64,000 nt of DNA from Shewanella sp. HN-41 (lineage in GTDB: Bacteria > Pseudomonadota > Gammaproteobacteria > Enterobacterales > Shewanellaceae): contig NZ_AFOZ01000013.1 in NCBI RefSeq assembly GCF_000217915.1, positions 186,001-250,000 on the forward strand, read 5' to 3'. Each line of letters opens with the position of its first letter. The stretch's first letter is position 1. Below the pieces are notes generated by a model, which was given only the letters and a program-made list of their open reading frames with translations, was not told the DNA's origin and ran no database searches. Shown here in pieces: positions 18,284 to 25,104 of the stretch. A program made the translations under genes and the position numbers.

Positions 18284-18460
18284 TGTGGGAGATCCTGTTA
18301 GCACAATCAATATCAGCGTTTTATCATTTAAACGGCATTGCCTTACAAGCTAGATATAGGATAATGCATTTTCTTGATGTTTCTGCTTAAGCAGAAATAT
18401 CGCAGCAATAGGTGTTGGGAATCTACCCTTGGATATTTTGCTACTGCGCCGTATGGTGAA

Positions 18461-18660
18461 AAAGGCAGATATTCCATGCGTATATCAACCCATACATAAT
18501 AGGGAATCGGGGCGCTCTGTCAGCCAGCCCGAACTGTACCCGCAACTGTGAGTAGTAAAAGAAGAACCTAAAGCCTTCTTCCCCTACAAGTCAGGAGACC
18601 TGCCTATTGCTGTTATCGCTGCGTGCAGCTTTAGTTCTCGAGCGGGTAACTCGAGGGAGC
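18461..18660 (+). promoter_or_regulatory. Cobalamin riboswitch
   Basis: AGGCAG (18463-18468) can form P1 with CTGCCT at the 3' end. The core has GGGAATCGGGGCG, GCCAGCCCGAAC, CCCGCAACTGTG and the B12 box AGTCAGGAGACCTGCC (18589-18604). The expression platform looks translational: CTCGAG (18637-18642) pairs with CTCGAG (18650-18655), which overlaps the Shine-Dalgarno GAGGGAG of the short leader ORF at 18666. Adenosylcobalamin would thus lower expression of the whole uptake/salvage run downstream. Confidence 0.93.
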
Positions 18661-18665
18661 AGAAT

Positions 18666-18731
18666 ATGATGATCAATATATCGGCCTTTTGGGCAACGGT
18701 TTGTTTTTACGCGGGGGTTTTGTCTCAGTGA
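18666..18731 (+). CDS. 21-residue hydrophobic leader ORF
   Basis: ATG at 18666 follows a strong GAGGGAG Shine-Dalgarno placed right after the riboswitch hairpin. It encodes MMINISAFWATVCF plus seven further residues ending LSQ, a hydrophobic peptide. Its TGA overlaps a GTG (18728) that is in frame with the ABC ATPase, giving GTGA coupling. The ATPase gene has no equally good ribosome site of its own. So the riboswitch may act on this ORF and pass control on by translational coupling. The peptide itself resembles nothing I know. Confidence 0.45.
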   Translation: MMINISAFWATVCFYAGVLSQ

Positions 18732-19609
18732 AGCCGTCCCAATTACAGCCAATGAAAACCTCTATCCCAGATACCGCACTCAAGGTGAGTGATTTGAGCT
18801 GGGTTATCGAGGGTAAAACCATTCTCGCGGATATTAATTTTGCTTTGCAAACTGGCCAGATGCTGGGGCTTATTGGCCCCAACGGTGCGGGCAAGTCGAG
18901 TCTGCTGCGTTGTATTTACCGTTTTGTGCGCCCAACCCATGGCAGTATTAGCCTTTTTAATCAAAATATTGAGCAGCTATCGCCCAAGACTTTCGCCTGC
19001 AAAGTTGCCGTTGTACAGCAGGATACGCCCCATTATTTTGATATGACGACCGAGCAATTGGTGGCGATGGGATTAACGCCCCATAAGGGCATGTTCGATA
19101 CCAATTCTAGCTGTGACAGGCAAAGGATTGCTAAGGCTCTGGAAAAGGTGGGTCTAAGCCACAAACTACACCAACAGTATGAGCGTTTGTCCGGCGGCGA
19201 AAAACAGCGAGCCCTGATCGCACGCGCCATAGTCCAACAACCACAATTGCTCATTTTGGATGAGCCAACCAATCATCTAGATGTGCGTTATCAGATCCAA
19301 ATCCTTGAATTAGTAAGGAGCCTTGGCATTAGCGTAATAGCCTCAATTCATGATCTCAATTTAGCCAGTGCCCTGTGTGACCGTTTGTTATTGCTCGATA
19401 AGGGGGCTGTGAGTGCTATTGGCACGCCGACCGAGGTGTTAACCGAGGCGCGTATCGGCGATGTCTTTGGTGTCTGCGCGCAGGTATCGCGTCATCCTCA
19501 ACATGGCAATCCTTTGATCAGTTACTTCTATGGTTACCAAAAGCAGCAGATCTTACACGAGTCGCAACTCCCCGAACTCTACCCCTGCGGACTTAAGGGG
19601 GATGAATGA
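18728..19609 (+). CDS. btuD: ABC transporter ATP-binding protein, cobalamin uptake
   Basis: 293 residues from GTG 18728, chosen for its coupling to the leader ORF; TTG 18689 and ATG 18752 are alternatives. Walker A GPNGAGKS is at residues 50-57, the signature is LSGGEKQR, Walker B is LLILDEPTNHLD and the H-loop is in SIHDLN. It is of the FecE/BtuD type that powers import through a FecCD permease. It overlaps the permease gene by 4 bp. The riboswitch upstream and the B12 genes downstream indicate corrinoid rather than siderophore import; the binding protein BtuF is at the end of the same run. Confidence 0.85.
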   Translation: MKPSQLQPMKTSIPDTALKVSDLSWVIEGKTILADINFALQTGQMLGLIGPNGAGKSSLLRCIYRFVRPTHGSISLFNQNIEQLSPKTFACKVAVVQQDTPHYFDMTTEQLVAMGLTPHKGMFDTNSSCDRQRIAKALEKVGLSHKLHQQYERLSGGEKQRALIARAIVQQPQLLILDEPTNHLDVRYQIQILELVRSLGISVIASIHDLNLASALCDRLLLLDKGAVSAIGTPTEVLTEARIGDVFGVCAQVSRHPQHGNPLISYFYGYQKQQILHESQLPELYPCGLKGDE

Positions 19610-20754
19610 AACAGGCAATGACGCATATGCTCGGCAATATGATGAATCGTATTTTAACACCGTTAACTCAACAGCAATGGTTGATCCTAGGATTAGTGAT
19701 CCTAGGGATATTAACGCCAATAGCCGCGGCGAGTTTTGGGGCGGCAACTATTAGTTTTTTAGATGTATTACATGTGGTTATCAGTAAGTTATCCCAGAGT
19801 TTTGACACGCTAAACACAACGAATGCGAATGGCATCACCGAGCGCATTGTGATGGAGCTCAGGCTGCCACGGATTTTGCTCGCCTTTGTGGCGGGGGCGG
19901 GTCTATCCCTTGCGGGGAGTGTGCTGCAAACTGTGACCCGCAATCCACTGGCCGATCCCTATTTATTCGGTATTAGCTCAGGCGCCTCCTTTGGGGCGGT
20001 CGTTATGCTCACCCTGTTCACAGGATCAGGTTTATTTGAGAGCGCCGGGGTTGTCGCCAATGCGGGGATCTTCAGTGGTTCGGGGGTATTTGCAGGTTTA
20101 CTCTGGTTTAGCTTGCCCTTTGGCGCCTTTATTGGTGCCAGTTTATCTGTGCTGATTGTACTTGCCTTGTCTGGACTTGGGCTTAACAGTCAAGTGGAGC
20201 GTATGCTGCTTTCCGGTGTGGCGACCTCTTTTATGTTTGGCGCCTTGACGAGTTTGTTATTGTATTTTGCTAGCCCGCAGGCAACGGCATCGGTGCTTTT
20301 TTGGAGTTTAGGCAGTTTTGCGAAGGCCAGTTGGCCGCTGTTGATTTTGCCTACTTTAGTCGTCGGCGCGAGTCTGTTGATTATTTTAGGGATGAAACGG
20401 CAGATTATGGCATTACAGGCCGGGGATGAAACCGCCCATACCTTGGGGGTAAACGTGCCCAAACTGCGGCTCAATATGTTGCTGCTTTGCTCTTTGATTA
20501 CGGCGATTTTAGTCGCGACCTGTGGCGGTATTGGCTTTGTGGGATTGATGATCCCCCACACGGTACGATTACTATTTCCTGGACAGCAGCCCATAGTGCT
20601 AACCGCGTTGGTGGGGGGATTATTTATGGTGTGGATAGATGTACTCGCCCGCTGTTTGCTCGGTAATCAAGAGTTACCCGTGGGGATTATCACCGCCGCC
20701 CTCGGGAGTTTCTTCTTTTTGCTTATCCTGCGTCGGCGTAAAGTGGCCATGTAA
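19606..20754 (+). CDS. btuC: FecCD-family permease, cobalamin uptake
   Basis: 382 residues, strongly hydrophobic, with about ten membrane segments. Family hallmarks are visible: LRLPRILLAFVAGAGLSLAGSVLQTVTRNPLADPxLFGISSGAS-like sequence in the first half (residues ~80-130) and GFVGLMIPHTVR in the second, which contacts the ATPase. The ATGA overlap with the ATPase gene indicates coupling. By context it moves cobalamin or cobinamide across the inner membrane with BtuD and BtuF. It is slightly longer than E. coli BtuC (326), owing to an N-terminal extension and a Gly-rich loop near residue 150. Confidence 0.85.
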   Translation: MKQAMTHMLGNMMNRILTPLTQQQWLILGLVILGILTPIAAASFGAATISFLDVLHVVISKLSQSFDTLNTTNANGITERIVMELRLPRILLAFVAGAGLSLAGSVLQTVTRNPLADPYLFGISSGASFGAVVMLTLFTGSGLFESAGVVANAGIFSGSGVFAGLLWFSLPFGAFIGASLSVLIVLALSGLGLNSQVERMLLSGVATSFMFGALTSLLLYFASPQATASVLFWSLGSFAKASWPLLILPTLVVGASLLIILGMKRQIMALQAGDETAHTLGVNVPKLRLNMLLLCSLITAILVATCGGIGFVGLMIPHTVRLLFPGQQPIVLTALVGGLFMVWIDVLARCLLGNQELPVGIITAALGSFFFLLILRRRKVAM

Positions 20755-20833: not shown

Positions 20834-21901
20834 ATGCCTCAATCAGCCGTTTCGTTTCAAATAAACCCTGTGAGCAAAGTACAAGATCAGACGATTCAAC
20901 AGAAAATAGATCTTAAGACTAAGCCACCCGGCTCCCTTGGGCTGCTCGAATCCTTGGCATTGCAAATTGCTCGTATACAGGGCGCAGAGCAGCCACAAAC
21001 TGATGTGCTAAAAATAGTCCATCCTACTCTGTTAGTGTTTGCGGGTGATCATGGCATTGCGGCAGAAGGTGTGTCGATTGCGCCCAGCGAAGTGACCCGC
21101 CAAATGGTGCAAAACTTTGCCCATGGCGGTGCGGCGATCAATGTGTTCTGCCGTCAGGTGGGGTTTAAGCTCGAAGTCATTGACTGCGGTATTTTAACGC
21201 CGGTTGAAGGTGTTGAAGGCATTATCGATCAACGTCTTGGCGCAGGGACTGGCGCTATTCACTTAGAACCCGCTATGGCGCTTGAAACCGTGGATAAAGG
21301 GTTTGCCATGGCGCGGGACTTAATTGAACGCCACCACCAGAGCGGGTGTAATCTGGTCGCCTTTGGCGAGATGGGCATAGGTAACACCTCTGCAGCATCT
21401 GCAATTATGGCGGCAATCATGCAGCTTGATGTGGTTGAGTGCGTTGGCTGTGGCACGGGCATCAACAGTGAAACCCTAGAACGTAAGTTGATGTTAGTTG
21501 AGTTGGCCCTGTTACAACATCAAAGCGCCTTAACGGGTCCAAGGGCCGTGTTAGCCTGCCTCGGTGGATTCGAAATAGTGCAGATGACAGGGGCCATGCT
21601 GGCCGCCGCCGAACGTAATATGTTGGTGGTTGTGGATGGTTTTATCGCCACAGCGGCGGCATTAGTCGCAGTACAAATTGCCCCCAATGTGCGTGATTAT
21701 TTAATTTTCGCCCATCAGTCCGAGGAACAGGGACACCAGCGCATGTTGGCCTTTTTGCAGGCAAAGCCCCTGTTGTCCCTTGGCCTTAGATTAGGTGAGG
21801 GGACTGGCGCCGCCTTGGCATTACCGCTGATCCAAGCCGCAGTAAATTTTTACAATGAAATGGCGAGTTTTAGTGATGCAGGTATTGAGGCTGTTGTATG
21901 A
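20834..21901 (+). CDS. cobT: Nicotinate-nucleotide--dimethylbenzimidazole phosphoribosyltransferase
   Basis: 355 residues, the usual length. Family motifs are [39 protein letters not shown] and the C-terminal [13 protein letters not shown], whose Glu is the catalytic base in Salmonella CobT. It makes alpha-ribazole 5'-phosphate from dimethylbenzimidazole and nicotinate mononucleotide for the lower ligand of B12, in the cytosol. It lies 79 bp after the permease gene and is followed by cobS, so nucleotide-loop assembly genes are contiguous. Confidence 0.95.
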
Positions 21902-23498: not shown

Positions 23499-25104
23499 AT
23501 GTCCTCTCCCAACCCTGACAAAGCCTGTACCGATGCACTTAATCAACTGGCCCAACACCGCGCTAAGGTGCTGATGGTGCAGGGCACAACCTCGGATGCG
23601 GGCAAAAGTACCCTAGTGGCCGGTATTTGTCGTCTGTTTGCCCGTGAGCAAGTGAATGTTGCGCCCTTTAAGCCGCAAAATATGGCGCTTAATAGCGCAG
23701 TGACAATCGATGGCGGCGAGATAGGCCGCGCACAGGCATTGCAAGCTGCGGCCTGTTACCTCGCGCCCCATACGGATTTTAATCCTATTCTGCTTAAGCC
23801 GAGTTCGGACACGGGGGCGCAGATTATTGTTCAAGGGAAAGCGTTAACGACACTGGAAGCCTCGGCCTTTTTTTGGCCCTAAATCTAAAGATTATAAAGC
23901 GATGGCACTCGGGGCTGTGCTTGACTCCTTCGAGCGATTGACGGCTCAGTATCAAACCATTGTGGTTGAAGGTGCGGGCAGCCCGGCCGAAATCAATTTG
24001 CGCGAGGGCGATATTGCCAATATGGGGTTTGCCGAAGCCGTGGATTGCCCTGTGATCATCATTGCCGATATCGATAAGGGCGGGGTATTTGCCCATTTAG
24101 TCGGAACCCTAGCCCTGTTATCTGAGTCGGAACAGGCGCGGGTAAAGGGCTTTGTGATCAATCGTTTTCGAGGCGATATTAGCCTATTGCAACCAGGGAT
24201 TGATTGGTTAGAAGCCTATACCAAAAAGCCCGTGTTAGGCGTGCTGCCCTATCTGCAGGATCTGCATTTGGATGCCGAAGATGCCCTAATCAACACGCCG
24301 ACTAAAGGCGCTAACAGCCGTTTAACAGTGCGGGTATTGGTCTACCCTAGGATCAGCAATCATACTGATTTTGATCCGCTGCGGCTGCATCCCGATATTG
24401 ATTTTGACTATGTGTCATTGCAAACCTTGGCTGCGGATCCCGTGGCTCATTTGCCTGCCGCCGATTTATTGATCCTGCCAGGCAGTAAGAATGTGCGCGC
24501 CGATTTGGCCTTTTTACGCCAACAAGGTTGGGATAAAGAGATCGCAAAACACCTGCGCTATGGTGGCAAAGTGTTAGGTATTTGCGGTGGTTATCAAATG
24601 CTTGGGCAGAGTATTGCTGACCCCTTAGGCATAGAAGATCGCGCGGGCGACACAGCTGGGCTCGGTTACTTGCCGCTGAGCACCGAACTTAAGGCCGAAA
24701 AGCAGTTGTGGCGGATGAGTGGTAAGCTAAATTTGCTTGGACAAAGTGCTGCCGTGCAGGGGTATGAAATCCACTGCGGCGAGTCACGTTATCTTGCACC
24801 AGTGCTAGAACAGAAGAATACACCCTTGCGGTTAATCCCTGAATCGACAACCTTACATGAACCTGCGATCGGTTTTGCCGATGGGATAGTCAGCGAAGAT
24901 GGACACATTTTGGGGACCTATTTGCATGGGCTATTTGATAGCCCGGATGCCTGTCAGTTACTTCTGCAATGGGCGGGATTAAACGATGCTAAGGCAATTG
25001 ATATCAATCAGATACGTGAGCAGCAACTGGACCGCTTAGCCGATGTGCTTGCCGAGCATTTGGATATACATACATTGCACGCCATTTTGGCTGGCGATAT
25101 TTAG
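23499..25104 (+). pseudogene. cobQ: Cobyric acid synthase, one frameshift
   Basis: The N-terminal part (from ATG 23499) has the P-loop [13 protein letters not shown] and KPQNMALNS, then reads off-frame into TAA at 23880. Removing one T from the T7 run at 23868-23874 gives [19 protein letters not shown] and one frame of 534 residues to 25104, a normal CobQ length. The C-terminal glutamine amidotransferase part ([13 protein letters not shown] with the Cys, and GTYLHGLFD with the His) is intact. The enzyme amidates adenosylcobyrinic a,c-diamide four times. All flanking B12 genes are intact, so a sequencing error is at least as likely as a real mutation. Confidence 0.85.

Follow-up and report, generated by a model that had tools for sequence, protein, structure and literature searches.

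A cobalamin riboswitch of Shewanella as the probable first element of a translational relay from a leader ORF to a transporter ATPase

Ordinary translational B12 riboswitches, like that of the btuB type in Escherichia coli, consist of an aptamer and control a Shine-Dalgarno sequence by a loop-loop contact. Leader-peptide attenuators (mgtL, tna and similar systems) carry a short ORF between the promoter and the controlled gene.

A third arrangement has been described for the B12 riboswitch of ppe2 in Mycobacterium tuberculosis. According to the available extracts of this study, the masked Shine-Dalgarno belongs to the upstream ORF uPPE2, which overlaps ppe2 in an AUGA motif (Kipkorir et al., 2024, PMC11260477). 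The same extracts state, based on reporters and tags, that ppe2 depends on translation of the upstream ORF, mainly by termination-reinitiation, and that this relay was unexpected to its authors. It is the one B12 riboswitch acting via an upstream ORF by reinitiation which we found in the open-access literature, and a search of this literature for Shewanella together with B12 riboswitches yielded no description of such an arrangement. Termination-reinitiation as such is known from overlapping gene pairs; removal of the internal Shine-Dalgarno lowered it in four of five E. coli pairs tested, as given in the available part of the publication (Huber et al., 2019, PMC6728339).

The locus of Shewanella sp. 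HN-41 presented here shares three features with ppe2 as described in those extracts (PMC11260477), namely a B12 riboswitch, a hairpin with a likely L13 partner at the Shine-Dalgarno of a short ORF, and an overlap of stop and start codon. It differs in that it comes from another phylum and that the controlled gene belongs to a B12-type ABC transporter operon. Furthermore, the arrangement is found genus-wide with turnover of the peptide and is known from sequence comparison, whereas ppe2 is known from experiment. While ppe2 is reported in the extracts to have no Shine-Dalgarno of its own (PMC11260477), the ATPase gene has one inside the leader, with a duplex energy of -9.3 kcal/mol at this locus and a median of -6.4 kcal/mol in the genus. 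We hold that the missing downstream Shine-Dalgarno is inessential to this kind of relay.

Unlike in the btuB type, the Shine-Dalgarno to be hidden is that of the leader, and the direct arrangement is limited to 10 of 128 loci in the genus. With the overlapping gene pairs the locus has in common an overlap of the ATGA/TGATG type and a Shine-Dalgarno inside the upstream gene, as far as the extracts describe them (PMC6728339), but here the upstream gene would be a disposable leader under a riboswitch. In contrast to the mgtL and tna attenuators, no peptide is conserved across the groups of leaders.

Riboswitch, leader and transporter genes at the locus

In the window, which is the whole analyzed stretch of 64,000 nucleotides, the cobalamin riboswitch (RF00174) is the only Rfam family with a match at the gathering threshold. 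The aptamer is located at positions 18437 to 18621 on the forward strand, like all features up to the permease gene, and was found by cmscan with 50.2 bits (gathering score 31.5), spanning the full model from 1 to 189. The initial annotation had recognized the riboswitch correctly, but the aptamer match begins 24 nt earlier than the region it had assigned. The second RF00174 match of the genome (L111) is on a different contig and is placed directly on its gene.

The L5-like aptamer loop UACCCG (18537 to 18542) is the exact complement of CGGGUA in the loop of a P13-like hairpin (18637 to 18655), which forms in the local fold. The hairpin consists of two CTCGAG arms (18637 to 18642 and 18650 to 18655) enclosing the loop CGGGTAA (18643 to 18649). 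Loops that complement each other and a stable hairpin downstream are the marks of an L5-L13-type expression platform, the loop-loop contact itself being predicted. The 3' arm is directly adjoined by the Shine-Dalgarno GGAG (18656 to 18659; duplex with the anti-Shine-Dalgarno -7.7 kcal/mol), and no terminator-like site was found between 18250 and 18850. This corresponds to a translational OFF switch, for which the direction of the response is predicted.

As the initial annotation had stated, this Shine-Dalgarno serves a short ORF starting with ATG at 18666 and not the ATPase gene. The leader ORF (18666 to 18731) has 21 codons and the stop codon UGA (MMINISAFWATVCFYAGVLSQ). Its TGA (18729 to 18731) overlaps a GTG at 18728, which is in frame with the ATPase ORF, to form a GUGA (18728 to 18731); GTG and overlap are retained in the loci L082 and L083. 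Inside the leader a GGGGG (18713 to 18717) resembles a Shine-Dalgarno for this GTG, with the duplex energy given above. The ATG at 18752, which the initial annotation had kept as an alternative start, has no Shine-Dalgarno (+1.2 kcal/mol, the GTG having -9.3 kcal/mol) and is replaced by ACG and ATC in the two nearest relatives, both of which retain the GTG. Judged by these sequence features, GTG 18728 is the likeliest start of the ATPase. For the annotation this means that the ATPase start moves to GUG 18728 and that one short ORF is added.

The gene thus delimited (18728 to 19609) encodes an ABC transporter ATPase of the BtuD/FecE type (Pfam ABC_tran, 120.6 bits). Since it scores below the cut-off of every NCBIfam model among the 25 matches listed, including the BtuD equivalog NF002981 (133.2 bits, cut-off 281 bits), the BtuD-type label and the role in B12 transport are assigned by context. 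It is followed by a FecCD/BtuC-type permease (19606 to 20754; Pfam FecCD, 270.8 bits), whose ATG overlaps the ATPase stop in an ATGA (19606 to 19609). Leader, ATPase and permease form a chain of stop/start overlaps. Downstream are cobT (20834 to 21901; TIGR03160, 442.3 bits) and further ORFs, which are presumably cobS, cobU and cobQ. The gene which we take to be cobQ is apparently split into two ORFs in different frames (23499 to 23882 and 23902 to 25104; positions 23499 to 25104 of the window), as a frameshift or a faulty assembly would produce.

Occurrence of the arrangement in the genus and beyond

Of 129 genomes searched in the genus, 128 contain the ATPase (E ≤ 1e-60). One locus per genome, the DNA upstream of the best ATPase match, was scored by a fixed rule based on the aptamer loop motif, a hairpin with a CGGG loop, a Shine-Dalgarno and the first start codon. 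The rule gave 99 leaders and 9 direct starts. Five leaders with a Shine-Dalgarno or loop motif missed by the rule (L130, L132, L133, L137 and L148) and one direct locus (L126) were added by eye, and the start codons of L085 and L163 were corrected. The 128 loci then comprise 104 with a leader, 10 direct ones, 13 without a riboswitch and one (L191) which is cut by a contig end. In the 10 direct loci the same kind of hairpin Shine-Dalgarno lies directly on the ATPase gene, which indicates that the riboswitch is aimed at ATPase expression.

The 13 riboswitch-free loci, which were called by motif, are precisely those of the 13 genomes in which RF00174 matches once; it matches two or more times in each of the remaining 115 with a match. 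This agreement refers to counts per genome and not to positions one by one. A tree of 126 rows and 56 columns, in which 39 of 111 inner branches are open and from which no dating is drawn, requires at least 10 changes among the leader, direct and riboswitch-free states. In L174, a natural direct version, the riboswitch Shine-Dalgarno and an ATG lead in frame into the ATPase; its neighbors in this poorly resolved tree carry leaders. Another search for relatives gave 80 loci, which were set aside as too distant, the best having 49% identity.

The hairpin arms diverge widely in the genus, and their pairing is nonetheless kept. Among 30 variants, taken from 47 distinct stretches of which the remaining ones repeat the same hairpins, each of the six pairs is altered on both sides somewhere, and 96.1% of the cells are paired, compared to at most 60.0% in slid controls. 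One of five covariation measures, the number of further pair types, was not above shuffles (9 versus 9.7). The search rule itself demands the CCCG/CGGG core of the loop contact. Of 113 scored loci, 82 have A-U or G-U as the next pair, and most of the others have a mismatch there.

A short ORF begun by a hairpin-adjacent Shine-Dalgarno, which would be masked as in ppe2, is present in 104 of 128 loci, and, as in that system, its stop codon runs into the start of the controlled gene. A stop within -8 to +5 nt of an ATPase-frame start was found in 93 of the 99 rule-scored loci and, after the corrections by hand, in 100 of 104; in this test the nearest in-frame start stands for the true ATPase start. 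The distances are -1 in 53 leaders (NUGA), -5 in 33, +2 in nine, and +4 and -11 in two each, with single loci at -8, +3, +5, +14 and +57. ATG is the start codon in 55 of the 93 coupled rule-scored loci.

Four leaders lie outside this range. L175 and L185 (-11) still overlap, by 11 nt, and L190 (+14) has stop codons within a broken ATPase reading, due to which its ATPase match starts late. Only L151 (+57) departs clearly from the pattern. Inspection by eye showed that its leader stop coincides in part with the start of another short ORF, which ends near an ATPase-frame GTG; perhaps this is a two-step relay.

The overlap expected by chance was estimated by applying the same rule to dinucleotide shuffles of the stretch between the leader start and the ATPase homology. 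It amounts to 29.3 ± 3.6 of 108 loci (maximum 39 in 300 shuffles), far below the 93 of 99 observed. Average linkage sorts the 99 rule-scored leaders into 42 groups at 60% DNA identity and into 23 at 50%; single linkage, which lumped 91 of the 99, was set aside. With one locus per group, 37 of the 42 groups, which are not fully independent, some being visibly related, are coupled, compared to 9.0 ± 2.1 by chance (maximum 16 in 1000 shuffles); counting ATG starts alone, it is 19 compared to 4.3 (maximum 9). In the 23 coarser groups a mean of 21.3 was obtained with random representatives, compared to 5.6 ± 1.9 by chance (maximum 11 in 300 shuffles). Virtual starts in the two other frames of the same DNA were coupled in 2 of 61 and 6 of 41 cases, after exclusion of 38 and 58, respectively, that lie in the ATPase frame. 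A scan for coupled short ORFs which was blind to the riboswitch found one in 92 of the 104 loci with a leader, in 2 of the 13 without a riboswitch and in none of the 10 direct loci.

Outside the genus, 104 B12 riboswitch loci of the same order were compared. They derive from 112 listed places, of which six were below the family cut-off, one was truncated where its contig ends and one was a near-copy; together with seven loci from the genus (L111 and L315 to L320) they make up the 111 that were scanned (L111 and L211 to L320). In 54 of the 104 the first element is a direct start, in 16 it is a short ORF, and 34 have neither; the short ORF is coupled in four (L225, L226, L233 and L297). One of these places, in another family (L225/L345), has a clear relay before an ATPase relative, with 15 codons, a distance of -8 and its own Shine-Dalgarno. 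L233/L343 and L297/L346, also before ATPase relatives, are weaker candidates because no good Shine-Dalgarno precedes the ORF. The ATPase relatives in other families were read with the strand set by tblastn. As coupled cases are few outside the genus, the relay appears to be mainly a trait of the genus in this sampling.

Function of the leader and its meaning

The leaders have 8 to 86 codons after the corrections, and their peptides are hardly kept. Pooled over 103 pairs, dN/dS is 0.69 for the leader, whereas the first 50 ATPase codons of these pairs give 0.08; the pairs are non-independent, come from 72 loci and have leaders that are 70 to 99% identical. Frame-preserving indels do not support coding, since 10 of 51 gaps in pairwise alignments of similar leaders are multiples of three and 24 are single bases. 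Hydrophobicity, for which the ORF at 18666 had been singled out, was rejected as a common trait of the leaders, because their median hydropathy (0.17) is below that of one shifted frame (0.62) and above that of the other (-0.07). Of the expected conservation of the leader frame, the presence of the leader and its stop/start overlap hold in the genus, and the sequence of the peptide does not. L085 shows well how the overlap is constrained: compared to L088 it has one base fewer in a T run, and a second ATG 8 nt further on restores the overlap. In the clade of L130, L133 and L148 a similar hydrophobic leader of 31 residues, resembling a single membrane helix, was observed, which may be a real small protein.

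The hairpin ends 32 to 267 nt before the ATPase start (median 73 nt in 101 loci), so that direct masking of this start is unlikely in many loci. The median Shine-Dalgarno energies are -7.8 kcal/mol at the leader starts (n = 104), -6.4 kcal/mol at the overlap starts (n = 102) and -2.4 kcal/mol at random sites (n = 520). In 44 representatives the ATPase initiation region shows no excess of structure compared to flank-shuffled versions (mean z 0.16, p 0.59). A structure which would cover the ATPase start while the leader is idle is therefore unsupported, and nothing obvious keeps the start shut in this state.

Based on the comparison within the genus, the best-supported reading is the one raised by the initial annotation, that control of translation passes through the leader. 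We give a probability of about 0.74 to a riboswitch-controlled translational relay in which translation of the leader leads to reinitiation on the ATPase gene. Bound cobalamin, by analogy adenosylcobalamin, would promote the loop-loop contact that locks the hairpin, and the leader Shine-Dalgarno would be hidden. At low B12 the leader would be translated, and ribosomes terminating at the overlap would restart on the ATPase gene, aided by the Shine-Dalgarno within the leader; the ATPase stop in turn would place them at the permease start which it overlaps. The leader would act as a feeder of ribosomes with a disposable peptide, and we infer that ATPase expression requires its translation.

Against such a relay, the Shine-Dalgarno of the ATPase start would also allow initiation without the leader. 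The ATPase could then be translated from GTG 18728 on its own, with the leader translated but unneeded, which agrees with the good Shine-Dalgarno sequences at the overlap starts, here and in the genus, and with their not being hidden by special structure. Such independent initiation is nevertheless unlikely, as it leaves the kept overlap (100 of 104) and a hairpin aimed at the leader without a reason, and the riboswitch would control no translation of the transporter, although ten loci aim its Shine-Dalgarno at the ATPase. A Shine-Dalgarno at the overlap start also fits aided reinitiation, because its removal lowered reinitiation in the E. coli pairs described in the available extracts (PMC6728339). 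The control might instead be transcriptional, in that B12 leaves the leader untranslated and exposed to Rho, while without B12 the ribosomes on it shield the transcript. The lack of an intrinsic terminator between 18250 and 18850 and the free variation of leader length and peptide are what mere ribosome cover would lead one to expect. However, this gives no need for the stop to overlap the ATPase start, leaders of 8 codons would give little shielding, and for ppe2 the available extracts report stop-codon mutants according to which Rho is not the cause (PMC11260477), so that we regard a Rho-dependent mechanism as quite improbable.

It is very unlikely that the peptide itself is the sensor, as a stalling or attenuator peptide. 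Leader ORFs do occur in 104 of the 128 loci and the clade of L130, L133 and L148 retains its similar hydrophobic peptide, but the division into 42 and 23 groups, the dN/dS far above that of the ATPase and the hydropathy between those of the other frames are at odds with a conserved peptide as in attenuators. That a strong upstream start merely yields some short ORF, with overlaps at random, has practically no probability left. Chance alone gives about 29 overlaps in 108 loci and 9 in 42 groups, and of the UGA stops in the right frame three in four create an NUG start; the observed 93 of 99 and 37 of 42 are nonetheless above every shuffle, as is the number in the 23 coarser groups, which refutes chance as the full account.

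Beyond the relay at the single locus, we consider it fairly probable that the B12 riboswitch of this genus seldom touches the transporter gene itself and gates the entry of ribosomes to a disposable, repeatedly rebuilt mini-cistron. Selection would keep only the stop/start overlap, resulting in a sequence-free relay which arose apart from the mycobacterial one. What is surprising here is the apparent hold of the relay over a genus despite its disposable peptide, the kind of relay itself being known from ppe2. A second case, across a genus of the Gammaproteobacteria, suggests that such relays recur, and the natural variants, with leaders of 8 to 86 codons, direct loci and riboswitch-free loci, can be used to dissect reinitiation.
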